64,000 nt of DNA from Gemmatimonadota bacterium (GTDB taxonomy: Bacteria > Gemmatimonadota > Gemmatimonadetes > Longimicrobiales > Gaopeijiaceae), in contig JAPPNO010000039.1 of NCBI GenBank assembly GCA_028873845.1, forward strand, positions 6,384-70,383, given 5' to 3'. Made by a program: the position numbers and the translations under genes. The notes under the pieces were generated by a model that saw only the letters and a list, made by a program, of their open reading frames with translations, searched no databases and was not told the origin of the DNA. Shown piece by piece: positions 40,045-57,426 of this stretch. Numbering within the stretch: position 1 is the first letter of the stretch; each line of letters opens with the position of its first letter.

Positions 40045-40088
40045 TTACGAAGCTTGTCGTTGACATTCGCCGCGTCGGATTATACCCT
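40045..40088 (+). promoter_or_regulatory. Promoter/operator element shared with blaI region
   Basis: A 25-base segment at 40045-40069 matches 49974-49998 in 23 positions. It contains an ACGA-N6-TCGT dyad directly overlapping a perfect -35 hexamer, TTGACA, at 40060-40065. A -10 candidate is TATACC at 40081 (15-base spacer) or TACCCT at 40083 (17-base spacer). It faces the propeller lipoprotein gene that starts at 40123. Confidence 0.65.
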
Positions 40089-40122: not shown

Positions 40123-41397
40123 ATGACCCGTATGAGGTTTTTCGCCAGTGCCCTGGCAACCTGCGCCGCCGCGGTCGCCGCCGCCTGCGGAACCGACGCG
40201 GTTTCCACCGGCACGGGTCCCGAGGTGGTGGTCGAAACAATCGGCGACACCACCGTCGTGCGTACGCTCTCGGGAAGCGTGTGGGACGGTGACGCCGCCC
40301 TCGTCCCCGAAGTCACCATCGGCGAGCTGGAAGGCCCGGAGGAGTACCTCTTCGGCCGCATCTCGTCGATCACGGTGGACGCGAACGGACGGGTGTTCGT
40401 CATGGACGGACAGGCCGGGGACATCCGTGTCTTCGACCCCGGGGGGACCTACGTCGAGACGGTGGCGAGGCGCGGCGAGGGTCCGGGCGAGTTGGGCAAC
40501 GCCACGTCGGTAGCGGTCCTGGCCGACGGTCGCGTCCTGGCGCATGAGGCGGGGGAGATGCTCGTCAAGGTCGTGGGTCCCGCACCCGCGGACCACGAGC
40601 TTTGGACGTACCCGCAGGGCGCCATCGTGGTCCCCGTCAAGCCGCTCCGCATCGACCGAAGCGGCCGAATCCAGGTGCCCGCGGCCTCATATTCGGGCGG
40701 CGACTTCGTCCAGTACCTGTACGTGATGGATTCGCGCGGTGAAATCGTGGACTCTCTCGCCCCTCCCGCCAGCGGGTTCGAGCCGCCTGCCGTGGAAGTT
40801 CGCCTCCGCATGCCGGTCGCGGGCCGTTCCACGGCACCGGTGAGCGTCCCCCTGACCGCCCGCCGCTACTGGACCATGCATCCCAACGGCCGCTTTCTGT
40901 CCGGCATCTCCACCGACTACCGAATCGACCTGGGACTCGACGACGGTGTCCTGAGGATCGAGAACGCATACGAACCGGTCCCCACGTCGGAGGCTGAACG
41001 GGAGTACCATCGGGAACGCACCACGCGGAGCCTGCGGCGCACACAGTCCGACTGGAGTTGGAACGGACCCCCGGTCCCCGACGCCAAACCGCCCTTCAGG
41101 GGACTGGTTGCCGGGCGGGACGGGCGCATATGGGTGCTGCTCTGGACCGAAGCGCACCCGGTCGACAATGAGAACCACAACCCGGACAACCCGTTTTCGG
41201 ACCCGGTGATCTGGGAGTCGCCGGTGCGCTACGATGCGTTCGAGCAGGACGGCACCCATCTTGGGACACTCGCGGCTCCGGACGGGTTCCGCGTCTGGCC
41301 GGAGCCCATCTTCGACGGCGATCAGGTGTGGGCGGTGACCGGGGACGAATTGGGCGTCGAGCGCGTGGTTCGCTACCGGATCGCGGTGGGCGGCTGA
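40123..41397 (+). CDS. 6-bladed beta-propeller lipoprotein
   Basis: A 424-residue protein starting at ATG 40123 with a lipobox-like signal (FFASALATCAAAVAAACG). The body contains 6-bladed/NHL-type propeller units: ISSITVDANGRVFVMDGQAG with VFDPGGTYVETVARRGEGPGE (read as two pieces), LRIDRSGRIQVPA, and GLVAGRDGRIWVLLW. Such proteins bind ligands or partner proteins on the envelope in Gemmatimonadota and Bacteroidota; no enzymatic residues are evident. Its promoter carries the same dyad/-35 element as the BlaI-type repressor at 50100, so it is a candidate member of that regulon. It is divergent from the outer-membrane protein operon. Confidence 0.82.
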   Translation: MTRMRFFASALATCAAAVAAACGTDAVSTGTGPEVVVETIGDTTVVRTLSGSVWDGDAALVPEVTIGELEGPEEYLFGRISSITVDANGRVFVMDGQAGDIRVFDPGGTYVETVARRGEGPGELGNATSVAVLADGRVLAHEAGEMLVKVVGPAPADHELWTYPQGAIVVPVKPLRIDRSGRIQVPAASYSGGDFVQYLYVMDSRGEIVDSLAPPASGFEPPAVEVRLRMPVAGRSTAPVSVPLTARRYWTMHPNGRFLSGISTDYRIDLGLDDGVLRIENAYEPVPTSEAEREYHRERTTRSLRRTQSDWSWNGPPVPDAKPPFRGLVAGRDGRIWVLLWTEAHPVDNENHNPDNPFSDPVIWESPVRYDAFEQDGTHLGTLAAPDGFRVWPEPIFDGDQVWAVTGDELGVERVVRYRIAVGG

Positions 41398-44193: not shown

Positions 44194-47082
44194 TCAGCGC
44201 CTCCACGCCGCCGCGTCGGGGATTCCGCGGCTAAGGAGCATCTCCAGACCAGGCCCGACGGGGACCACGCCACCGCGCACGTCCGCCGCCGTCGCACCCG
44301 GCGGCAGATCGGTGAAGAAGCCACGCACCCTCCCGGTCCGCAGGTCCCGCAGGATCACGGCGGGACGGTCGGTGTCGGCATCCAGGGCGAAGGATCCGTC
44401 CGGTCCCGAGAGGGTGATCCGGGCAAGCTCATTCGCCCACGGTACCTGCGCGGGCACGGTGAACGCGAATGAACTGCGATCCTCCTCGCCCGCGATGACG
44501 GGCATTTCGAAGTGGAAACTGAAAAGCTCGGTGCCGCCGGCCGCGGTCCCCCTCAAGCGATATGCGCCGCTTGAGCGAGGCAGCGACGGCGGCGCGTCGA
44601 TCACGAACGCCGGCCGCAGGTAGGGGCGCCCGGCGGAGCCGACCCCACCGGTTATCAGAAGCGACAATGTAGGCGCGGCCGGACGCACCGAACGCTCGGC
44701 AGCCTCCCACACCAGCCGATGACGCAGCGAGTTGGTGAAATAGAACTCGCTGACCCAGGTCGGATTGCAGTAGGACATGAGGTCGCTGATCGAGGGATCC
44801 ACCAGCATGCCCGTGGAGAAGTCGTATCCCCATGCTCCGATCGATCCGTCCGACTGCGGAAACGAAATGTCCGGCCCACCCGCACCGCAGCCGGGCGCGT
44901 GATAGAGGCTCAGGTTGTGTCCGAGTTCGTGGGACATGACCCACGGGTCCGGAATCGAGAAGCTGTTCCAGCCGGGCACGTACGCGACGCCGCGGGCACC
45001 GGTGACCGACCCCGACATCGTACCCATGAAGTACCCCGTTCCACCCTCGGCCGCGCGGATGGCCCCGGTCTGTTCCAGCATCGAGAAGGCACTGTTCGAG
45101 TTCGTCACCACGGGCTCATGGATGCTCAGGTCGATCTCCGCCACAGGGAGCAGATACCGGATGTCCCGAAGCAGCGGGTCGCCGGGCGACAGATCCCCGG
45201 TGATGTCGAGGATCGCGGAGTCCGGGTTCTCGCTCCACAGGAACGGAATCAGCGTGAATCCCAGGTCCGGCATCGCACGCACATCCACCGCCGTCCGCCC
45301 CGTCTCGGGGATGCGCTTCGTCACGCCCAGCTCCGAGGCCACCGTACCCTCCGGATCGATCTCCACAACCATCTCCAGGCCTGGCCGGATCACCGACGCG
45401 GGAATGCGCACGTTGGCCGACGAATTCAGCGATCCTTCGCCGATCCGGTCGCCGATGATCGAGGTCCCCCGCGGGATCTCCACCACCTCCTCCTCCTGTC
45501 CATCCACGAAGATCGTGGCGCGGACCAGCGGAATCGTGTCGCCGGCAGCCGCCGGGGCCACCACGAACACCCGCAGGAGCGCCTCCTCCCCGGCGACCAG
45601 CGGCACCGGGTATTCAATGGACTGCACCGCCTGCGTGAGATAGGCTGCCGACCCCTCGACGGGACCCTCACATGAAGGGATCCGCCTCTTGGTCACACCC
45701 TCCAGCCACGCCTGGAACTCGTCATCGTCGGGTGCACACAGGCCCGTCCCCTGGAGCATGAGTTCGGAGAGTTCCTGCAGCCGGGTCAGGCCCGGCGGGA
45801 GCAGGCCGGAAAGATCGGAGTCGGTCAGGAGGAGCCGCGTCAGGCTCGCCATATCTCCGATCTCCTCGGGCAACGGGCCACTAAACCCGCTCCCGTGGAG
45901 CACGAGCCTGTCGATGCTCGGCAGGCGCGTCAGCGCCACCGGAAACGGTCCGCCGAAGTCGTTGCCGCCCATCCACAGGTCGGTCAGGCTCACAAGGTTG
46001 CCGAACTCATCGGGAAGATCGCCGGAGAGCTTGTTGTTGTGCAGGTACATGCGGTCGAGACTCGTCAAGCCGCCCAATTCACCGGGGATGGCGCCGGTCA
46101 GGTCGTTGTTGTAAAGCGCCAGTCTTTCAAGACTCGCCAGGTTCCCCAGTTCCGGGGGGATGGACCCGCTCAATTCGTTGCTGTGCAGCCACAACAGTAT
46201 CAGTTCCGTCAGGTTGCCGATCTCGGGCGGAATGGTCCCGGACAGACGGTTGGCTTCGAGGTACAGGGTACCCAGTTGCACGAGATTCCCGATCTCGGGT
46301 GGAATGGTACCCGTAAGGTCGTTGTAGGAGAGGTCCAGGTCGGTCAGCCGGGTGAGGTCACCGAGCACGGGCGGGATGGTGCCGGAAAACCCGTCCCTGT
46401 ACAGTTGCAGATCAAGCAACCGTGTGAGGTTCCCGATCTCGAGCGGGATCGTCCCGGAAAGGTCGTTGTAGTGGAGGTGCAAAACTCGCAACTCCGTAAG
46501 GTCCCCGATCTCGGGTGGAAGGGTGCCGGAAAGGCTGTTGAACCTGAGGTTGAGCCCCGTTACTCGTCCGTCCACGCCGGTTTCGACCCCGTACCAGCTC
46601 TCGAGTGGCGCCTCCGAAAGCCATCGACTGTTGTCAGCCCAGTTTTCCCCGTCCGTGGCGTTGTAGATGGCGGTCAGCGCCAGCCTGTCCGCCTCGAGGA
46701 TCACCGTAACCGCCGCGGAGGCCGATGCCGTTCCTGCCGTTGCAGTGATTCTCGCCATCCCCGCCCCCTCGGCGCGTACCAGCCCGGTCTGGCTGACCGA
46801 CGCGACCGTGCTGGCGCTGGTCGACCACGAAACGGTCTGGCCCGCCATCGGCTGCCCGTTCTGGTCATACACCTGGGCCGTCAGCTGGGCGGTTTCTCCC
46901 GCGGACGTAAACGTCAACTCGGTCAGGTTGAGGGTGATCGACGTGGGCTCGGGCGGCGGGACCGGATCCCCGCAGCCGAAGTTGGCCGCGAGAATGGCAG
47001 CGGCCAACACGATGACACGGCGGAAACCGAGGCGCGTCGTGGAGGTGGTAAGGCAGGCGGAGGAGGAAGTCGAGATCGGCAC
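44194..47082 (-). CDS. Lipoprotein metalloprotease with Ig-like and leucine-rich repeats (paralog 2)
   Basis: A 962-residue paralog of the protein at 18074-20689. The GTG start at 47082 has AAGGAG six bases upstream. A lipobox-type signal ends at Cys37 (LAANFGC). A BIG2-like domain is followed by about ten 24-residue plant-type leucine-rich repeats (LSGTIPPEIGNLTEL units, about 165-430), then the protease region with HELGHNLSLYH at 718-728 and LMSYC as the Met-turn. In the HExxHxxGxxH pattern the glycine is serine here, unlike paralog 1. Repeats are more regular than in paralog 1, suggesting recent expansion. Likely a surface-anchored protease or protease-like binder. Confidence 0.85.
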   Translation of the reverse strand: MPISTSSSACLTTSTTRLGFRRVIVLAAAILAANFGCGDPVPPPEPTSITLNLTELTFTSAGETAQLTAQVYDQNGQPMAGQTVSWSTSASTVASVSQTGLVRAEGAGMARITATAGTASASAAVTVILEADRLALTAIYNATDGENWADNSRWLSEAPLESWYGVETGVDGRVTGLNLRFNSLSGTLPPEIGDLTELRVLHLHYNDLSGTIPLEIGNLTRLLDLQLYRDGFSGTIPPVLGDLTRLTDLDLSYNDLTGTIPPEIGNLVQLGTLYLEANRLSGTIPPEIGNLTELILLWLHSNELSGSIPPELGNLASLERLALYNNDLTGAIPGELGGLTSLDRMYLHNNKLSGDLPDEFGNLVSLTDLWMGGNDFGGPFPVALTRLPSIDRLVLHGSGFSGPLPEEIGDMASLTRLLLTDSDLSGLLPPGLTRLQELSELMLQGTGLCAPDDDEFQAWLEGVTKRRIPSCEGPVEGSAAYLTQAVQSIEYPVPLVAGEEALLRVFVVAPAAAGDTIPLVRATIFVDGQEEEVVEIPRGTSIIGDRIGEGSLNSSANVRIPASVIRPGLEMVVEIDPEGTVASELGVTKRIPETGRTAVDVRAMPDLGFTLIPFLWSENPDSAILDITGDLSPGDPLLRDIRYLLPVAEIDLSIHEPVVTNSNSAFSMLEQTGAIRAAEGGTGYFMGTMSGSVTGARGVAYVPGWNSFSIPDPWVMSHELGHNLSLYHAPGCGAGGPDISFPQSDGSIGAWGYDFSTGMLVDPSISDLMSYCNPTWVSEFYFTNSLRHRLVWEAAERSVRPAAPTLSLLITGGVGSAGRPYLRPAFVIDAPPSLPRSSGAYRLRGTAAGGTELFSFHFEMPVIAGEEDRSSFAFTVPAQVPWANELARITLSGPDGSFALDADTDRPAVILRDLRTGRVRGFFTDLPPGATAADVRGGVVPVGPGLEMLLSRGIPDAAAWRR

Positions 47083-48304: not shown

Positions 48305-49795
48305 ATGGCTCCTCGGGCTCTTCGCAACCGTCCCCGGTCCCGCGCCACACCACCCCCCGCGCGGCTCACGGTCCTACCCCTGTTGATTCTCATGGGATGC
48401 GGCGACAACCGCACTTCCTCGACCGAAGACCACGACACCACCCCCACCCACGACGACGGCCCCCTCCTCATCGATGGCGGTACCGTCGTCGTCATGGACG
48501 AGTCCGGCCTGATCCTCGAGGGTGCGGCGGTGGTCGTCGAGGGCGACCGCATCTCGGCGATCATCGCGCAGGGCGGCCCCCGCCCCGACGCCGCCCGCGT
48601 CATCGACGCCACCGGCCAGCTCGTCATCCCCGGCCTGGTCAACACGCACGGCCACGCCGCCATGTCGCTCCTCCGCGGCCTCGCCGACGACCTCCCGCTC
48701 ATGACCTGGCTGAACGACCACATCTTTCCGGCCGAAGCCGCGCTCGTCGCCCCCGACTTCGTCTACTGGGGCACCCTGCTCTCCTCGGTCGAGATGCTCA
48801 AGGGCGGTACGACCACCTTCGCCGACATGTACTACTTCCGCGACGACATGGCCCGCGCCGCGATCGACGCCGGGATCCGCGCGGTCACCGGGCCCCACGT
48901 CATCGGCTTCCCCACCCCCGACTTCGCCACCCCCGAGGCCTCGCTCGCTGACGCCGCGGAGTTCATGGAGCGGTACCGGGACCACCCCACCATCGTCCCC
49001 GCCGTCGCCGCCCACGCTCTCTACACCACGCCGCTGGAGGCCGTCGAGGCCGCCTTCCGCCTGGCCGAGCGGTACGACGCCCCCTTCCAGATCCACGCCG
49101 TCGAGGACCCCTCCGAGGACGTGACCGCGCGTGAACAGACCGGCATGGGGGTGATCGAGGCGCTCGGTTCCATCGGAGCGCTCCGGCCCGGGACCGTGCT
49201 CGCCCACTCCATCTACCTGTCTGACGAGGACATCGAGCGCATCGCGGCAAGCGGGGCGGGGATCGCGCACAATCCGCAGAGCAACATGAAGCTGGGGGTC
49301 GCGCGGGCTGCCCCGGTGGCGAGGGCGCTGGCGGCCGGGATTCCGGTCGGGTTGGGGACCGACGGGCCCGCGAGCAACAACGACCTCGACATGTTCGACG
49401 AGATGGACGCCGCCGCCAAGGTGCAGAAGTTCATGCTGGGCGATCCGGCGGCGCTTCCGGCGGAGACGGTGTTCCGCATGGCCACCATGGGCGGTGCGCG
49501 CGTGCTCAACCTCCACGAGGAGATCGGGTCGCTGGAGCCGTGGAAGCGCGCCGACATCGTTCTGGTGGACACGCGGCGACCTGGGCTGACGCCGCTCTAC
49601 AACGTCTATTCCCACCTGGTGTACGCGGCGCGCGGCAGCGACGTGACCACCGTAATCGTGAACGGGCGCGTGGTGGTGGAGGACGGCGAGATCCTCACGG
49701 TGGACGAGGAGGAGGTGATGGAACGGGCGCGGGGGTTCGGGGCGCGGGTGCGTGAGGTGATGGAGGAGGTGGCGGCGGGGAGGGAGGGGGGCTGA
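48305..49795 (+). CDS. Lipoprotein-anchored MTA/SAH-deaminase-like amidohydrolase
   Basis: A 496-residue member of the amidohydrolase superfamily closest in pattern to 5'-methylthioadenosine/S-adenosylhomocysteine deaminases: VIPGLVNTHGHAAMSLLRG with the HxH metal site, KGGTTTFADMYYF, a histidine in FQIHAVED, another in GTVLAHSIYL, and GLGTDGPASNNDLDMF with the catalytic aspartate. Such enzymes are normally cytoplasmic, but this one begins with a basic stretch and a lipobox-like segment (LTVLPLLILMGC), so it should be exported and lipid-anchored. The substrate may therefore be an extracellular nucleoside, s-triazine-like or other heterocyclic compound. The ATG at 48305 is the only start that keeps the signal. 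Confidence 0.85.
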   Translation: MAPRALRNRPRSRATPPPARLTVLPLLILMGCGDNRTSSTEDHDTTPTHDDGPLLIDGGTVVVMDESGLILEGAAVVVEGDRISAIIAQGGPRPDAARVIDATGQLVIPGLVNTHGHAAMSLLRGLADDLPLMTWLNDHIFPAEAALVAPDFVYWGTLLSSVEMLKGGTTTFADMYYFRDDMARAAIDAGIRAVTGPHVIGFPTPDFATPEASLADAAEFMERYRDHPTIVPAVAAHALYTTPLEAVEAAFRLAERYDAPFQIHAVEDPSEDVTAREQTGMGVIEALGSIGALRPGTVLAHSIYLSDEDIERIAASGAGIAHNPQSNMKLGVARAAPVARALAAGIPVGLGTDGPASNNDLDMFDEMDAAAKVQKFMLGDPAALPAETVFRMATMGGARVLNLHEEIGSLEPWKRADIVLVDTRRPGLTPLYNVYSHLVYAARGSDVTTVIVNGRVVVEDGEILTVDEEEVMERARGFGARVREVMEEVAAGREGG

Positions 49796-49973: not shown

Positions 49974-50017
49974 TTACGAAGTTTGTCGTTGACAATCGGA
50001 TCCCTCGCCCCTAATGT
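49974..50017 (+). promoter_or_regulatory. Predicted promoter and operator of blaI-M56 operon
   Basis: TTGACA at 49989-49994 and TAATGT at 50012-50017 are separated by 17 bases, a good sigma-70-type promoter. The dyad ACGA-N6-TCGT at 49976-49989 abuts the -35, where a repressor would block polymerase. The element is a near copy of 40045-40069, and self-repression by the BlaI-type protein is the simplest reading. Confidence 0.65.
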
Positions 50018-50099
50018 GGGTATCAAGAGCATTACGAGAATCTTCGTGAACGCTCCCGGGGGGTTACCGGAGCGACGGCAAAACGGGAGAAAAGGACGA

Positions 50100-50501
50100 A
50101 TGACCGGCCAGCGAGGGAAGCGTGAGCCGAGGGGTTTCACCGACCGCGAACTCGACATCATGAGCGTGCTGTGGCGGGAAGGGTCGGGCACCGTCACCGA
50201 GGTCCGCGAGGCACTCGGCGAGGAGGTCGGCTACACGACCGTCCTCAAGATGCTGCAGATCCTGGAGGAGAAGGGCGCGGTGAGCCACGAGCAGGAGGGA
50301 CGCGCCTACCGCTATTTCCCGCTGGTGGAGTCGGTGCGGGCGGGCGGGCGGGCGCTCTCGCGGATCGTCAACAAGATCTTCCACGGGTCGGCCGAGCGGC
50401 TCCTGGCCACCCTGGTGGAGGACCGGGAGTTCACCGCCGAGGAGATCGAGCGGATGCGTTCGATCCTGGACCGGGCGGAGCGCCGGGGGGATGAAGGATG
50501 A
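50100..50501 (+). CDS. BlaI/MecI/CopY-family transcriptional repressor
   Basis: A 133-residue winged-helix repressor: FTDRELDIMSVLWREGSG, then VGYTTVLKMLQILEEKGAV (recognition helix) and AYRYFPLV (wing), followed by a helical dimerisation tail. In the known Bla/Mec pathway an M56 membrane protease activated by an external signal causes cleavage of such a repressor. Here two M56 genes follow directly; the first overlaps the repressor stop by 4 bp (ATGA), making this a complete repressor-protease operon. The ATG at 50100 follows AAGGA and starts the conserved domain. Confidence 0.92.
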   Translation: MTGQRGKREPRGFTDRELDIMSVLWREGSGTVTEVREALGEEVGYTTVLKMLQILEEKGAVSHEQEGRAYRYFPLVESVRAGGRALSRIVNKIFHGSAERLLATLVEDREFTAEEIERMRSILDRAERRGDEG

Positions 50502-52294
50502 TCGCGTGGATGGCCTACGCCGCCCTGGTCGGAGCGATCGTCGCGGTTGCCGGGCTGGCGATGGAGCGTCTCGCGGCCGCGGTGGGCCGGCCGCGGCGAA
50601 TCGCGTGGCTGGTGGCGCTGCCGCTGGCGGTCGCGATCCCGCTGACGGGCGGATGGGACGGGTCGGCGCAGCCGGCGGCGGACTCCGCCGCCACACCCGT
50701 GGTGATCGACGGCGCCGTGGTCGTGGACTTACGGAGTGCGACCCCTCCTCTCCCCGTTCCGCAGGGACGGGCAACCGGCAGGATCGCGCTGCTCGGGTGG
50801 GTCGCGGGTTCCCTGGCGTCCCTGGCCGTTCTGGGCAGCGTGCTTGTGATGGTTGCGCGTGGACGCCGCCGCTGGGAGCGCAGGAGGGTGAACGGCGCCG
50901 ACTTCTACGTGTCGCGCCGCTTCGGCCCCGCCCTGGTCGGCGTCGCCCGGCCGGAAGTGGTGATCCCCTCCTGGGTGTTGCAGCTGGAGCCGGGCGCCCG
51001 CGACGCGATCATCCGGCACGAAGCCGAGCATGCCCGCGCCCGCGACCACCTCGTCCTCCTCTACGGCGGACTGTTGGCGGCAGCGTTCCCGTGGAGCCCG
51101 GCGATCTGGTGGATGTACCGGCGCCTTCGCGCCGCCGTGGAACTGGACTGCGACCAGCGGGTCCTGGCGTCAGGAATCGGGGTCGCAGAGTACGGCGACG
51201 TCCTCCTGAGCGCGGGGGCCCGTTCCCGTGCCCGCTGGGGATTCGCCCCGGCCATGGGTCAACCCGAAAGTCTGCTTGAACGGAGGCTGAAGACGATGAG
51301 CGAGAAAGGAAGGAAACCGAGCGGGGGATACGCGGCGCTGCTCGTGGCGGTGGCTGCGGGGGCGCTGGTGGTGGCGTGCGATACCCCGGTGCCGACGGAA
51401 GTCAGGGAGGCGTTCGCCGAAGCAATGGCGGAAGACGAGGCGCAAGGGGCGGATGCGGAGCAGGAGGACTGGATCGAGCGGTTCCTGGGAGCCACCGCGT
51501 TCGGCAAGAACCCCGCGCCGCTCCTGTACGTGGACGGTATCCGGGTCCAGTCGGAGGAGGACCTGCTTGCCATGGAGCTCTTCCTCGCGGATGCGGGGAC
51601 GGGGGAGCTCCGGAAGCTGGTCGAGCGGATCGAGCGGGTCGAAGTGCTGAAGGGGGCGGCCGCCGCAAAGCTCTACGGCGAAGAGGGGGCAGGCGGAGTG
51701 ATCCAGCTCTTCACGGACATCGGGTCCGACGTGGAGTTCATCATCGTGCCGCCGGCCCGGGAAATCGTGGTGACGGGACAGCTGATCGATACGGTCATCG
51801 CCCTGCCATCCGTCGGTCTCGTGGCGACGGGACGGACGGACGAATCGGGACAGGCAGCCATCGGGGCAATCACGGTGACGGGAGTTGCGGGACAGGAGCC
51901 CGAAGTCGACGTCATCGAGAAACCGGTGGTCAGGCAGTTCGTGATGGCGAGACAGGGGAGGGCGGCGGACCAGGCAATGGACTGGGACAAGTGGTTCACC
52001 GAAAACGTCGTGGCGAAGGCACCCCCGCGCTGGAAGCCGGTCATCTATGTCGACGGCGTGCGCGTGGACGGCGGCGCCGCCGGGCTGAACGACGTGCTCC
52101 CGGCGCTGGACCCCGGCAGCATCGCCCGCATCGAGGTGGGGAAGGGCGAGGTGGCGGCGAAGCGCTACGGCAAGGAAGGGGCGCACGGGGTGATCCACAT
52201 CTTCACCAGGAAGAAGTCCTCGGAGGAGCCGTTCCCCGAAGCCGGGAAGGGCGGCAAAGGGTCCTCGAAACGCTCTCCGGCCGGCTCCCCGTGA
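50498..52294 (+). CDS. M56 (BlaR1-type) membrane peptidase fused to TonB-plug-like repeats, copy 1
   Basis: A 598-residue fusion. Residues 1-270 are an M56 peptidase with membrane helices near 1-22, 35-53 and 107-128; the zinc site is HEAEH at 174-178, followed by FPWSPAIWWMYRRLRAAVEL and the DCDQRVL ligand region. A fifth hydrophobic segment (AALLVAVAAGALVVAC) resembles a lipoprotein signal ending in cysteine. The extracytoplasmic part has two plug-like units at about 340-405 and 513-570, with YVDGIRV then IERVEVLKGAAAAKLYG and GVIQLFT in the first, as in SusC-type TonB receptors. It likely senses an envelope signal and triggers loss of the BlaI-type repressor; the signal is unknown. Confidence 0.88.
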   Translation: MIAWMAYAALVGAIVAVAGLAMERLAAAVGRPRRIAWLVALPLAVAIPLTGGWDGSAQPAADSAATPVVIDGAVVVDLRSATPPLPVPQGRATGRIALLGWVAGSLASLAVLGSVLVMVARGRRRWERRRVNGADFYVSRRFGPALVGVARPEVVIPSWVLQLEPGARDAIIRHEAEHARARDHLVLLYGGLLAAAFPWSPAIWWMYRRLRAAVELDCDQRVLASGIGVAEYGDVLLSAGARSRARWGFAPAMGQPESLLERRLKTMSEKGRKPSGGYAALLVAVAAGALVVACDTPVPTEVREAFAEAMAEDEAQGADAEQEDWIERFLGATAFGKNPAPLLYVDGIRVQSEEDLLAMELFLADAGTGELRKLVERIERVEVLKGAAAAKLYGEEGAGGVIQLFTDIGSDVEFIIVPPAREIVVTGQLIDTVIALPSVGLVATGRTDESGQAAIGAITVTGVAGQEPEVDVIEKPVVRQFVMARQGRAADQAMDWDKWFTENVVAKAPPRWKPVIYVDGVRVDGGAAGLNDVLPALDPGSIARIEVGKGEVAAKRYGKEGAHGVIHIFTRKKSSEEPFPEAGKGGKGSSKRSPAGSP

Positions 52295-52369
52295 TCCCGG
52301 TCAGCTCCGCCCCGGAGAAGTCCGCCAGGATCCCGGCGCCGGCCGGTTAGCGCACGGAGGGTTTGACGC

Positions 52370-53872
52370 ATGATCGCCTGGATGGTGTACGCGGCTCTGG
52401 TCGCGGTGCTGATCGCGGCGGGCGGACTTGCGCTCGAGCGGCTGGCAGCCTCGGCCGGGTGGCCGCGCCGGTTCGCCTGGCTGGCGGCGTTGACGCTGGC
52501 GGTGGCAATCCCTCTGGCGGGGAGGACGCCCGACCCGGTCGCGCCTCCGGTGCAGGAGGCCGCATCGGCCGTCTCTGCGCTGGTCGGCGGGACACCCGTG
52601 GCGGAGGGGTGGAGCGTGATTCCGGTCCTTCCCGTCCCCGTGGGCACCGATGCGGACAGGATCGCGGCCATGGCCTGGGGCGCCGCGTCCATGGCGGCCC
52701 TGCTCGTTTTCGGCTGCGTGCTGCTGGTCGTGACCTTGCGGCGACGCCGCTGGGAACGCAGAAGGGTGGCCGGAACGCAGGTCTACGTGTCGCGCCGCTT
52801 CGGCCCGGCTCTGGTCGGCGTGGCCAGGGCGAAGGTGGTCGTCCCCGCATGGGTGCCGGAGCTGGAGCCGGGTGCCCGCCACGCGATCGTCCGGCACGAG
52901 GAGGAACATGCGCGTGCGCGCGACCACCTCGCGCTGCTCTACGGCGGACTCGTGCTGGCGGCATTCCCCTGGAGCCCGGCGATCTGGTGGATGTGCCGGC
53001 GGCTTCGTGCCGCGGTGGAAATGGATTGCGATGAACGGGTCCTTGCGTCGGGGATCGGAGTCGCCCACTACGGCGCCGTCCTCCTGAACGCGGGAACCCG
53101 GTCACATGGCTGGTGGGGATTCGCCCCCGCGATGGGGCAACCCGGGAGTCTGCTCGAAAGGAGATTGAGGATGATGAGCGGGAAGCGGAAGAAGCTGGGC
53201 GCGGGCCGCGCGGCCGTGCTCGCCTCCATGGCGGTGGGCACGCTGGTGGCGGCGTGCGACGCGCCGTTGCCGACGGAACTCCGTGACGCGATCGCCGAAG
53301 CCATCGACGTCCAGGCCCGCGAGGCCCGGGACGGCGCACCGGCCGACAGGGCCAGGGACTCCAATCTGGCCAAGTGGTTCGTCTCGGACCCGGCTCCGCT
53401 CGTGTTCGTGGACGGTTTGCGCGTCGGGCGTTACGAGGAGCTGCCCGAATCGGTCCGGCTCTGGTCCGAGAGCGGCCTCAGGATGGACGGGCTGGTCGAC
53501 AGGGTCGAAGTGGTCAAGGGTCCGAGATCCGGAGAGCTCTACGGCGAGGAGGGCGCCAACGGAGCGATCCGGATCTTCACGATGGAACGGCCCGCGGACG
53601 AGGAGATGGTCGAATCCGTTGCCGAAAGCCCGGTGGAGTCGGACCGGGACAACCTGTGGGGGGGCAAATTCTCAGGGTTGGACGGGTCGCAAGCGCTTCC
53701 AATCATATTCATCGACGGCGTCCGCGCGGACTACCGGGCGGACGGCGAAGCGCTGCCCTGGGCGGATGCCGAGGCCATCGACAGAATCGAGGTGATCAAG
53801 GGTGCAGCGGCGGCGAAGCTCTACGGCAACGAGGCCGCCTCCGGGGTGATCCTGGTTTACACGAAGATCTGA
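52370..53872 (+). CDS. M56 (BlaR1-type) membrane peptidase fused to TonB-plug-like repeats, copy 2
   Basis: A 500-residue tandem paralog of the preceding gene, 75 bp downstream. The peptidase half is close to copy 1 (HEEEH at 176-180, FPWSPAIWWMCRRLRAAVEM, the DCDERVL region) and the last hydrophobic segment again ends in a cysteine (VGTLVAAC). Two plug-like units lie at about 342-405 (FVDGLRV, VDRVEVVKG, GANGAIRIFT) and 444-500 (FIDGVRA, IDRIEVIKGAAAAKLYG, SGVILVYT). The second repeat forms the very C-terminus. The plug regions differ more between copies than the proteases do, as expected if they recognise different signals or partners. Confidence 0.88.
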   Translation: MIAWMVYAALVAVLIAAGGLALERLAASAGWPRRFAWLAALTLAVAIPLAGRTPDPVAPPVQEAASAVSALVGGTPVAEGWSVIPVLPVPVGTDADRIAAMAWGAASMAALLVFGCVLLVVTLRRRRWERRRVAGTQVYVSRRFGPALVGVARAKVVVPAWVPELEPGARHAIVRHEEEHARARDHLALLYGGLVLAAFPWSPAIWWMCRRLRAAVEMDCDERVLASGIGVAHYGAVLLNAGTRSHGWWGFAPAMGQPGSLLERRLRMMSGKRKKLGAGRAAVLASMAVGTLVAACDAPLPTELRDAIAEAIDVQAREARDGAPADRARDSNLAKWFVSDPAPLVFVDGLRVGRYEELPESVRLWSESGLRMDGLVDRVEVVKGPRSGELYGEEGANGAIRIFTMERPADEEMVESVAESPVESDRDNLWGGKFSGLDGSQALPIIFIDGVRADYRADGEALPWADAEAIDRIEVIKGAAAAKLYGNEAASGVILVYTKI

Positions 53873-53953: not shown

Positions 53954-56185
53954 TCACCCCGACCCCCCACCCCCCTGACTGCGTTCCCGCACCGCCTCCG
54001 TCCCCCCGAAATACACCTGCACGAAGTCCTTGGCCATCTCCTGGTAGCGCACGCTCGTCTCCGTGTCGCCGTCGACCTCGGCAAGCGCGGCCAGCAGCGC
54101 CGTCAGCCGGTAGTACCCGTAGACGATGCTCTTAGTCGAATAGTCCGGCCAGATCTCGCGCGCCCGGAGTCCCCGGTAGCCGTATACCTCGTCCACGAGA
54201 TGCCGTGATCGCGGGTAGTTGAACCACTCCGCTCCCAGCCCCGTGCCGGTCTGGCGATACGTTTCCGGCTGCTCGCCGTCCAGATCCCGCATGTGGAGCC
54301 GGACCGCGAGTCCCTCCGAGACTCCCCACGCGCTGAGCCCCATGTCCCGCATCTCTCCGTCCCGCGACGCGAAGTAGACGGGCCTCTCGGCGGACGAGGC
54401 ATCGATGATCGCAAGCGCGAGCCGATGGCCGCTGCGAACGTCCATTCCCCTCGGGTACTGGACCGTCATGCCGCCCATTCGCACGGCCATGTCGTCCGGA
54501 AGCGGACCGTCCCCCACCGTCTCGATCTGCTCGTCCGTGAGCGTGATCACCGGCCCGGCGGGCGGTTCACGGTCCGCGTACGGCAGTCCCTCCACCGGCA
54601 CGAAGGGCCGCTGCCAACCCGGTTCGGTCCGCTCGCGCAACTGCTTGGCGTACCACTCGGTGAACAGGTACTGAACCACCACCACGGTCACGTCCTGGCG
54701 GATCTCCTCGACCTCCTGCAGGTACCACAGCGGAAAGGTGTCGTTGTCGCCGTTGGTGAAGATCACTCCGTACGGCTCCATGCTGTTCAGCAGGTCGTAG
54801 GCCCAGTCGCGGGCGGCGTAGTCTCCGGCCCGGTTGGCCCAGCTCAGGTTCAGGAAGAACGGGATGGCCGCCACCGCGAGCACCGGCGACGCATTGCGCA
54901 GACTCCCCATGCGGTCCCCCAGCCACAGCCAGCAACGCGCCACCCCCAGCCCCGCCATCGCCCCCCACAGCGCGAAGAAGAGCAGGAAGAAGTAGTCGCG
55001 TTCGCGCACCTCGTGGGTGCGGTGGCCGGTTATTTCCGGCGCGAGCGAGTACCCATAGCGGAAATTCAGGTAGAAGACGAGCGCCACCGACAGTGTGGCC
55101 GCGAAGACGCCGAAATAGGCGCCCGTCCGGCCGTCCCCCCGCCAGACGGTAAACAAGCCGACCCCGCCCAGGGCCAGGAACAGCAGGCTGAAGGGGAGGC
55201 GCTTTCGGCTCGGGGGTTCGTCCGGATCGAGTCCGCGCGACCACTGCCAGTCGAAGTACTGGAAGAAGTTGGCGAGCTGGTGGGAGAAAGGCGCCATGCG
55301 GGTTGTGACCGGGGGCTTCGCATACTGCTCGCGCCTGAGCGAGGCGGCCAGAGCCGGGCATCCGGCGGCCCCGTTCGTGTAGACCGCAACGGCCGTCTCC
55401 ACCACTCCTCCGCACAGAGGATCCCCCTCGTTGATCGCGGGACGCTCGGCCGCGCGGATCGGCAGAAAGAAGTTGAAGGAAAGTCCGACGACGACGGCTC
55501 CCACGCACCACGACAGAAACCGCGCGTGTACCAGCAGCCTCGGCCGGGTCAGGCCGATGAAGACCAGCACCGCGCCCGCCGGGAGTACCGACATGAGGTG
55601 ATTGGTGGCGCCCAGCGCCATCAGGTAGACGGCCAGGACCACCAGGGTGACGCTGTGCGGGTCGTGCCTCCGGTCCCACCAGCGAAGCATCAGCCAGCTC
55701 ACGGCCGCGGCGATCAGCAGGGAGATCGTATACACCTTTTCGTTGGTGTTGCTCTGGCTCCAGACCGTGAAGGCCGTGGCCGACACCACGACCGCGGTCC
55801 CCGCGCCGATCAGCGCCTCGCGGCCCGCTCCCCGCAGCTGCACCAGCGTACGGTGCGCAATCAGAAAGAAGAAGAACGACGCGCCCGCGGACGTCGCCGC
55901 CGCCAGAAGGTTGATCCGAACGGCGGGTGACAGTCCCAGCGGCGCCAGCAACACGGACCATGTCCGCCCGACCGCCACAAAGAGCGGATTGCCCGGCGGA
56001 TGGGGCAGGCCCAGCGTGTGGGCGGTGGCGATGTACTCGCTGGTGTCCCACCAGGAAGTCGAGGGAGCCAGGGTCAGGACGTACAGCAGGAAGACGCCCG
56101 CCGCGGCGCATGCGGCGACGAGGTACGGCGGCTTCGGCAGACCGCCATCGGGGTGTCCGGATTTCGATGCCATGCATCTGATCAT
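53954..56185 (-). CDS. DUF2723-family membrane glycosyltransferase-like protein
   Basis: A 743-residue polytopic protein with about ten membrane helices. The first loop after helix one has the family motif APSTSWWDTSEYIATAHTLG, followed by LPHPPGNPLFVAVGR, as in DUF2723 proteins, which are related to protein O-mannosyltransferases. A large C-terminal soluble part contains FTNGDNDTFPLWYLQEVEEI, common in this family. It probably transfers a sugar from a lipid carrier to an extracytoplasmic protein. Start at ATG 56185 or 56173; both are close to the first helix. Divergent from the alpha/beta hydrolase gene with 80 bp between starts. Confidence 0.85.
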   Translation of the reverse strand: MIRCMASKSGHPDGGLPKPPYLVAACAAAGVFLLYVLTLAPSTSWWDTSEYIATAHTLGLPHPPGNPLFVAVGRTWSVLLAPLGLSPAVRINLLAAATSAGASFFFFLIAHRTLVQLRGAGREALIGAGTAVVVSATAFTVWSQSNTNEKVYTISLLIAAAVSWLMLRWWDRRHDPHSVTLVVLAVYLMALGATNHLMSVLPAGAVLVFIGLTRPRLLVHARFLSWCVGAVVVGLSFNFFLPIRAAERPAINEGDPLCGGVVETAVAVYTNGAAGCPALAASLRREQYAKPPVTTRMAPFSHQLANFFQYFDWQWSRGLDPDEPPSRKRLPFSLLFLALGGVGLFTVWRGDGRTGAYFGVFAATLSVALVFYLNFRYGYSLAPEITGHRTHEVRERDYFFLLFFALWGAMAGLGVARCWLWLGDRMGSLRNASPVLAVAAIPFFLNLSWANRAGDYAARDWAYDLLNSMEPYGVIFTNGDNDTFPLWYLQEVEEIRQDVTVVVVQYLFTEWYAKQLRERTEPGWQRPFVPVEGLPYADREPPAGPVITLTDEQIETVGDGPLPDDMAVRMGGMTVQYPRGMDVRSGHRLALAIIDASSAERPVYFASRDGEMRDMGLSAWGVSEGLAVRLHMRDLDGEQPETYRQTGTGLGAEWFNYPRSRHLVDEVYGYRGLRAREIWPDYSTKSIVYGYYRLTALLAALAEVDGDTETSVRYQEMAKDFVQVYFGGTEAVRERSQGGGGSG

Positions 56186-56265
56186 GACGAAGTGCGGTAG
56201 ATTGGCAAGGTGCCGCACCCGCGAGGGACCACCCCTTCGCTGCATTCGAGAGCCGGGAAGCAGCC

Positions 56266-57426
56266 ATGCCCAGTCCAACCCGTGACACCGTCCGATTCAT
56301 TCGGGGCTGGATCGGCGGACGGCACCTGTCCGAGCGCGACGGCTCCCCCGTCACCTCCGGAAGTTTCCTCGAGACCGGGGTCGCGGGAGTACGCACCCGG
56401 GAGGTCGTGATCGGCAGCGGCACCTCCGCACTCCACGCCCGGTGGTACGGCCCGCGGTTCGGGAGGTTCCCGGCCCCCGGCTGGGTGCTGCTGCACGGCG
56501 TGACCCTCCCGGGACCCGACCACCCGGCCATCGTGCGCTTCGCCGCGGCGCTTGCCCGGTCCGGAGCCGTGGTACTGGTGCCGGACATTCCCACGTGGCG
56601 CCGGCTGGATCTGGATCCCCGGCCCGCCCAGACGGCTCTGGCCCGCGCCGCGGAGCAGCTGGCCACCGACCCGCGGGTGAGGCCGGGGGGCGTCGTGCTG
56701 GTGGGACTCTCCTTCGGCTTCCCGCAGGTTCTCCGCGTGGGGGCCGAGCTGGCCCGGAAGGGATTCGTGCGGGGACTGGGAGGGTTCGGCAGCTACTGCC
56801 GTCTTGCGAACACACTCCGATTCGGGCTGACGGGTCAGTTCCGTTGGCGCGGCCGGACGCACTATCTGCGGCCGGACCCATATGGGCGATGGGTCGTCGC
56901 CGCCAACTATCTCCACCGGGTCCCGGGGTGCGAGGATGCCGAATGCGTGTCTCGCGCGCTTCACCGCCTGGCCGTCCTGGCGGGCGAACGCAGGATCCTG
57001 TCGTGGGATCCGGGCTACGATGTCGCCAAGGACGACCTGGAAAGGTCGATTCCGGCAGCACATCGACCCCTGTTCCGTCTCTTTGCGCCTCCCGCCGACC
57101 GCGAGCCCAGGCCGGATCCCGCCCGCGAAATGACCGGCCTGCTCGCCGACGCCGCCCACCGGACCCATCCGGAGCTGGCGCCGACCGGTCCCCACGGCGT
57201 TCCTCCTCCCCCCGTTCGGCTGCTGCATGGCCGCCGCGACCACCTCATCCCTTTCACCGAGACCCTGGCCCTGGAGCGCCTCCTCCGGAAGAGGGCCGAT
57301 GTCTCCGCCACGATCACGGGCCTTTTCGCCCACTCCCGTGAATCCGGACCCACAGCCTCCCGAATACGCGAGTCCGCCGGTTTCTTCAAGGGGCTGAAGG
57401 AGATGATGGCCCTCCAATACCGCTGA
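56266..57426 (+). CDS. Alpha/beta-hydrolase family protein
   Basis: A 386-residue hydrolase of the alpha/beta fold. The oxyanion-hole strand WVLLHGVTLPGPDHP, the nucleophile elbow GLSFG (serine in VGLSFGFPQ), a late acid region GRRDHLIPF and a final histidine in LFAHS are in canonical order, so all catalytic residues appear present. No signal peptide is seen, so it is probably cytoplasmic or membrane-associated. The substrate is unknown; an esterase or thioesterase role is plausible. Confidence 0.8.
   Translation: MPSPTRDTVRFIRGWIGGRHLSERDGSPVTSGSFLETGVAGVRTREVVIGSGTSALHARWYGPRFGRFPAPGWVLLHGVTLPGPDHPAIVRFAAALARSGAVVLVPDIPTWRRLDLDPRPAQTALARAAEQLATDPRVRPGGVVLVGLSFGFPQVLRVGAELARKGFVRGLGGFGSYCRLANTLRFGLTGQFRWRGRTHYLRPDPYGRWVVAANYLHRVPGCEDAECVSRALHRLAVLAGERRILSWDPGYDVAKDDLERSIPAAHRPLFRLFAPPADREPRPDPAREMTGLLADAAHRTHPELAPTGPHGVPPPPVRLLHGRRDHLIPFTETLALERLLRKRADVSATITGLFAHSRESGPTASRIRESAGFFKGLKEMMALQYR

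Follow-up and report, generated by a model that had tools for sequence, protein, structure and literature searches.

BlaR1 and MecR1 serve as the textbook examples of M56 sensors, and the workings of M56 metallopeptidases that have no penicillin sensor are far less clear. An operon of three genes, related to the switch that activates penicillin resistance in staphylococci, lies in a 64,000-nucleotide stretch of contig JAPPNO010000039.1 (hereafter the window), which belongs to a metagenome-assembled genome (MAG) of a Gemmatimonadota bacterium. The genes, all on the forward strand, lie in the order blaI, M56a, M56b. We propose, with a probability of about one half, that they form a circuit like that of BlaR1 and BlaI in which the sensor end is new, and that each sensor gene specifies two products. 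All of the evidence is inference from the sequences of uncultured organisms, and the sequence counts given below, even with thinned representatives, do not number independent events.

The blaI gene (50100..50501, +) encodes a BlaI/MecI-family repressor of 133 residues (P0001; Pfam Penicillinase_R, E = 8.6e-30), whose nearest solved relative is MecI (1sd6, 7e-10). The start of M56a overlaps its stop codon at 50498-50501. M56a (50498..52294, +; P0002, 598 residues) and M56b (52370..53872, +; P0003, 500 residues) encode M56 membrane metallopeptidases (Pfam Peptidase_M56, E = 7.6e-15 and 6.6e-13, respectively), and the Pfam matches of all three proteins exceed the family cut-offs. M56a also matches BlaR1 by profile (8exp, 2.3e-5), and its AlphaFold model contains membrane helices at residues 2-29, 34-50, 91-123 and 276-295 and a disordered linker. 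The zinc motif is intact in both (HEAEH/HEEEH with E215/E217); the HExxH (174-178) and E215 do not vary, and in the alignment they coincide with the BlaR1 zinc ligands. The bond at which BlaR1 cleaves itself, S283|F284 (PMC9834060), aligns with A|M here, directly before a conserved LLERRL. A first-pass annotation of this DNA had described a BlaI-type repressor followed by two tandem M56 peptidases, with repressor and zinc sites intact, and that description holds throughout.

The same annotation held that TonB-plug-like repeats replace the penicillin-binding sensor. A penicillin-binding domain is indeed absent from M56a and M56b, for which Pfam at E<=1 gave M56 and Plug alone. Plug matched two stretches in each protein (E = 5.9e-13 for M56a and 4.7e-13 for M56b), at 51509..51715 and 52028..52213 in M56a (residues 342-406 and 515-570 of the model) and at 53393..53584 and 53699..53869 in M56b (all +). 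The last of these carries the SusC/RagA signature TIGR04057, which M56b matched with 52.5 bits against a cut-off of 46.2, while M56a fell slightly under it with 41.9. A profile of the ectodomains hit structures of SusC, Cir, BtuB and FepA, with values from 1e-8 to 1e-7. The model of the M56b ectodomain was modest (predicted local distance difference test, pLDDT, 62.6 overall and about 75-82 within the units), and its top Foldseek matches were TonB-dependent receptors, with probabilities of up to 1.00. A whole plug is not present: the best match spans about positions 55-107 of the 107 in the profile, the C-terminal half, and there is no beta-barrel. We therefore refer to these units as half-plugs.

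Upstream of blaI we found two copies of an ACGA-N6-TCGT dyad. The first, O1 (49976..49989, +), abuts a -35 element TTGACA (49989-49994), and the second, O2 (50034..50047, +), lies between blaI and a possible, weak -10 element (TAATGT, 50012-50017); this proposed blaI promoter was missed by a scan for consensus promoters. The arrangement recurs upstream of blaI in relatives, where one dyad abuts the TTGACA and the second follows about 45-60 bases downstream. In the genus, and likewise in two further genera (L076, L090), the pair precedes the plug-M56 operons; it also stands before dispersed M56 genes with no adjacent blaI and before amidohydrolase-blaI-M56 operons in other species. It was not found before M56 loci of the TonB_C type within the order. 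In 581 kb of loci chosen around M56 genes, ACGAN6TCGT occurred at 70 sites against 5 expected. The extended form ACGAN6TCGTTGAC gave 31 matches in 23 genomes of the genus against 2 for the reversed control, mostly before M56, blaI or amidohydrolase genes, although a few look like chance.

The two-product proposal begins with the fourth membrane helix (TM4), which links protease and half-plugs. It ends in a lipobox, with Cys294 in M56a (VVAC-D; 51377..51379, +) and Cys296 in M56b (VAAC-D; 53255..53257, +), preceded by a basic and then a hydrophobic stretch. Such a lipobox is present in 41/41 plug-bearing M56 proteins, and the Ala-Cys pair (A293-C294, without exception in sets of 20 and 41 sequences) varies no more than the zinc ligands do. 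Most other Gemmatimonadota M56 proteins of the subfamily share the Ala-Cys end; proteobacterial M56 proteins lack it, their TM4 usually ending in FAAQ or similar, which resembles a signal peptidase I site. Since Cys294 is internal in full-length M56a, the lipobox could work only if TM4 acts as a signal peptide, and it is truly N-terminal only in nested or protease-less forms. The residue after the cysteine is D or E in 57 of 70 M56 proteins, and D in none of 9 beta-propeller lipoproteins; given this small sample, an Asp at +2 is at most a candidate inner-membrane retention signal. In Luteibacter and Dyella (L181, L175, L183), TM4 of the M56 protein resembles a signal peptide of the signal peptidase I type (MLSKPKKW...MAVFAAQ), and CGGAGG and ATG lie before it.

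A candidate start for such a nested form lies just before TM4. In M56a the proposed ribosome-binding site and start (51281..51298, +) comprise GGAGG at 51282-51286, nine nucleotides, and the ATG at 51296 (Met267); in M56b (53157..53176, +) they comprise AAAGGAG at 53157-53163 and ATGATG at 53171-53176. The protein motif here is L-E-R-R-(L/I)-x-x-M, and we analyzed its codons in 66 representatives with mutual identity under 85%. R263 is encoded by AGA or AGG in 60/66, compared with 25/364 at six other conserved arginines; the R262 codon ends in GG (CGG or AGG) in 55/59, and E261 is GAA in 47/60. These constrained arginine codons place GGAG nine bases upstream of ATG267, and the GC content at third codon positions reaches its minimum at this site. 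Compared with synonymous shuffles, the anti-Shine-Dalgarno energy was -8.2 against -3.6 (mean z -1.95), and the local mRNA was less folded (-7.0 against -10.0, z +1.04); at six control positions within these genes, neither a stronger Shine-Dalgarno sequence nor weaker folding was seen. A start codon lay within two codons of the site in 65 of the 66. The idea for this test came from the very data that it was then applied to. As the only semi-independent checks, AGR occupied the site in 7/8 distant paralogues of the window's own genome, and in Proteobacteria the enrichment was only partial (8/20).

Short genes that encode the same helix, lipobox and half-plugs with no protease occur within or after the M56 arrays of several relatives (L141, L144-L147, L155-L166) and once more in the window's own genome, on contig C133. 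By best match, at least three sequence types can be told apart among them, and the GGAG-N9-ATG element is their apparent start. Two loci (L155, L164) have an altered upstream reading frame and retain the element or a near equivalent. Synteny matches the C133 locus to a full M56-plug locus of a relative (G013), with flanks that align at 87-93%; about 880 bp spanning the protease are missing, and operators, lipobox and half-plugs are kept. The C133 locus and the other protease-less genes thus indicate that the C-terminal part can stand alone as an operator-controlled lipoprotein gene. Half-plugs also occur in a different setting, a single-helix protein with one unit (G000:C106; L131:3161-3814, -), for which neither a lipobox nor an operator was seen.

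Could the element have another function? It might merely pause ribosomes before TM4, with one product per gene and a BlaR1-like sensor on an ordinary helix. Pausing on rare codons alone was rejected, because the R262 codon that precedes R263 is also constrained to GG, creating GGAG. A Shine-Dalgarno-like sequence could itself cause pausing, and BlaR1 is known as a single polypeptide (PMC9834060). Several observations fit pausing and count against the two-product reading: M56 genes without a lipobox sometimes carry the element (AGR in 7/10 from Gemmatimonadota and 8/15 from Proteobacteria), and a distant paralogue (L014) has GGAG with no start codon nearby. Conversely, L080 and one copy in L085 have a lipobox and no nested element. 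The wider circuit also has weak points, as the MecI cleavage site N101|F102 aligns with T|L in P0001 and the half-plug fold matches are weak by Z score (at most 4.3). Nevertheless, the need for GG before AG fits initiation better, and the weaker folding and the start codon at fixed spacing favor initiation over pausing, without proving it. Pausing also leaves the invariant Ala-Cys, and the apparent use of the element as a start by protease-less paralogues, without explanation, and we regard it as unlikely, though it deserves attention.

A different single-product scheme would have signal peptidase II cut full-length M56 at the TM4 lipobox, releasing a half-plug lipoprotein and an untethered protease. 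The position and orientation of the lipobox, the positive residues before it and the Ala-Cys pair would all be expected under this scheme. We nevertheless consider it improbable, since it leaves the codon-level constraint without explanation and the loss of the sensor by cleavage would break a relay of the BlaR1 type.

Do the operators reach beyond the operon? Bare ACGAN6TCGT was too common to define a genome-wide regulon (66 sites), and only extended forms were used. TTACGAN6TCGT matched 6 times in the window's genome, against 2 for the control: twice before blaI, once before the protease-less gene on C133, once before a beta-propeller lipoprotein gene in the window, and twice on contigs C18 and C42, again before beta-propeller genes. 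These last two are less certain, as they fit only the shorter pattern and may be chance. The operator of the propeller gene in the window is a single dyad (TTACGAAGCTTGTCGTTGACA; 40047..40060, +) with a core identical to that of the M56 operators, 10 kb from the operon, and the gene behind it (40123..41397, +) encodes P0004, a six-bladed beta-propeller lipoprotein of the DUF5128 family (Pfam, 1.7e-8); by its motif match, P0004 is a probable regulon member. An amidohydrolase lipoprotein gene (48305..49795, +; Pfam Amidohydro_1, 4.3e-70) lies upstream of the operon, and in several relatives the amidohydrolase gene is joined directly to blaI behind the same operators. The DUF5128 family has at least 89 matches in this 4 Mb genome, many of which neighbor a blaI-M56 pair, and in many of the loci read beta-propeller genes lie immediately 3' of M56 genes. 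In one relative (L133, G012:C51) the operator pair precedes an M56 remnant, and a beta-propeller lipoprotein gene comes straight after the remnant. The targets found, namely blaI/M56, half-plug lipoproteins, beta-propeller proteins and an amidohydrolase, lead us to propose a small regulon under ACGA-N6-TCGT dyads. Like the TM4 lipobox and the proposed nested start, these putative operators and their regulon are additions to the first-pass annotation.

In the circuit that we favor, BlaI would bind the two dyads and repress its own operon and the scattered targets. The M56 proteins would be four-helix membrane metalloproteases with a catalytic site facing the cytoplasm, which would cleave BlaI upon a signal at the extracytoplasmic half-plugs. 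Initiation at the nested ATG would produce the half-plug end alone as well, with TM4 serving as a lipoprotein signal peptide and Cys294 as the presumed site of lipidation. Given the shared repressor and the nested starts, derepression would raise the protease-sensors together with two kinds of lipoprotein, the free half-plugs and the beta-propellers. In the least certain step, the free lipoprotein would most likely compete for the ligand of the tethered copy, or present it, providing feedback. We extend this scheme tentatively to Gemmatimonadota M56/BlaR1-type sensor genes in general, which may each yield a protease-sensor and a separately translated, exported sensor copy, wired through the repressor to stand-alone copies and beta-propeller lipoproteins. 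As part of the same tentative proposal, the exported copy would be a lipoprotein here and a plain secreted protein where the end of TM4 is signal-peptidase-I-like.

What, then, might the half-plugs bind? The first-pass annotation had suggested that the system senses the state of TonB or of SusC-type transporters. Descent from SusC/BtuB-type plugs is clear in sequence and makes an outer-membrane transport partner plausible, and the genome is rich in TonB-dependent receptor genes (36 plug matches). Related M56 proteins bear TonB_C domains, and at L189/L090 the frame of a plug M56 is overlapped by a TonB_C frame, reflecting either a frameshift or a sensor with both plug and TonB_C. However, the plug is represented by its C-terminal half alone, and no gene for a TonB-dependent receptor or other transporter lies behind any operator examined. 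Ectodomains on related M56 chassis also differ widely, from TonB_C and beta-propellers to unrelated sequences. Plugs occur in just two of the 12 M56 matches in this genome, both of them in the window; the two closest paralogues have TonB_C domains (one Pfam-confirmed) and two further ones have beta-propeller-like C-termini. With such variable ectodomains and no transporter gene in the regulon, transporter sensing is unproven, and we think it quite unlikely.

Alternatively, the half-plug may simply be a convenient alpha/beta module for binding, with no tie to TonB biology, each tandem M56 protein having a ligand of its own. Arrays of M56-type genes reach five members with fast-diverging ectodomains, and linker and unit number vary strongly, as such a role would allow. 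Conservation of the plug signature residues is good, suggesting a surface that has been retained, and argues in the other direction; on balance we see the module as a real possibility, somewhat short of a preference. Either ligand could accompany either a nested start or pausing.

The linkage of blaI to M56 genes is also found in relatives. Four MAGs labeled as Gammaproteobacteria (L161, L162, L164, L166) contain the same blaI-M56-plug-lipoprotein cluster as a BD2-11 clade of Gemmatimonadota, through either transfer or an error of binning or labeling. Near the operon, the window encodes a TMEM260-like membrane protein (protein O-mannosyltransferase-like family; 53954-56278, -) downstream, and a 962-residue protein (44194-47082, -) with a bacterial Ig-like domain, leucine-rich repeats and a weak M66 peptidase match. 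A search of open-access literature for M56 proteins with plugs, TonB or lipoboxes, and for internal starts of BlaR1 or MecR1, yielded no account of this arrangement; one paper merely lists a BlaI/M56 pair in Porphyromonas gingivalis. The locus thus supplies an M56 system lacking the penicillin sensor, together with a proposed operator, a small regulon, an origin for the ectodomain and a conserved candidate nested start. If our reading is true, decoy or partner sensor copies would join the scheme of M56 signaling, and annotation pipelines would be overlooking a class of lipoproteins hidden within membrane protease genes.

Three known systems provide the closest comparisons. The BlaR1-BlaI and MecR1-MecI pairs of Staphylococcus aureus and Bacillus licheniformis likewise link a repressor to an M56 gluzincin with an HExxH...E site, place an extracytoplasmic C-terminal domain behind the last helix and have dyad operators in the repressor promoter; BlaR1 also shares the conserved loop and RRL segment of the autocleavage region. 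Unlike these, the present operon has half-plugs and no penicillin-binding domain, a lipobox at the end of TM4, a proposed nested start, another operator sequence with other targets, and tandem M56 arrays. M56 proteins with TonB_C domains (L019, L020, L080, L087, L091) have in common with it the chassis, an adjacent blaI and a modular C-terminal domain; they differ in bearing TonB_C in place of the plug and in lacking the ACGA-N6-TCGT pair at blaI, and the two in the window's own genome have no lipobox, nested Shine-Dalgarno sequence or Met. The SusC/RagA and BtuB/Cir receptors (PF07715, TIGR04057) share the C-terminal plug half with its I-E-V-x-K-G, YG and G-V-I-x-x-T motifs. In those receptors this half is joined to an N-terminal plug half and a beta-barrel, both absent here, whereas the half-plugs of this operon are predicted to be periplasmic, carried on a protease or as a lipoprotein.

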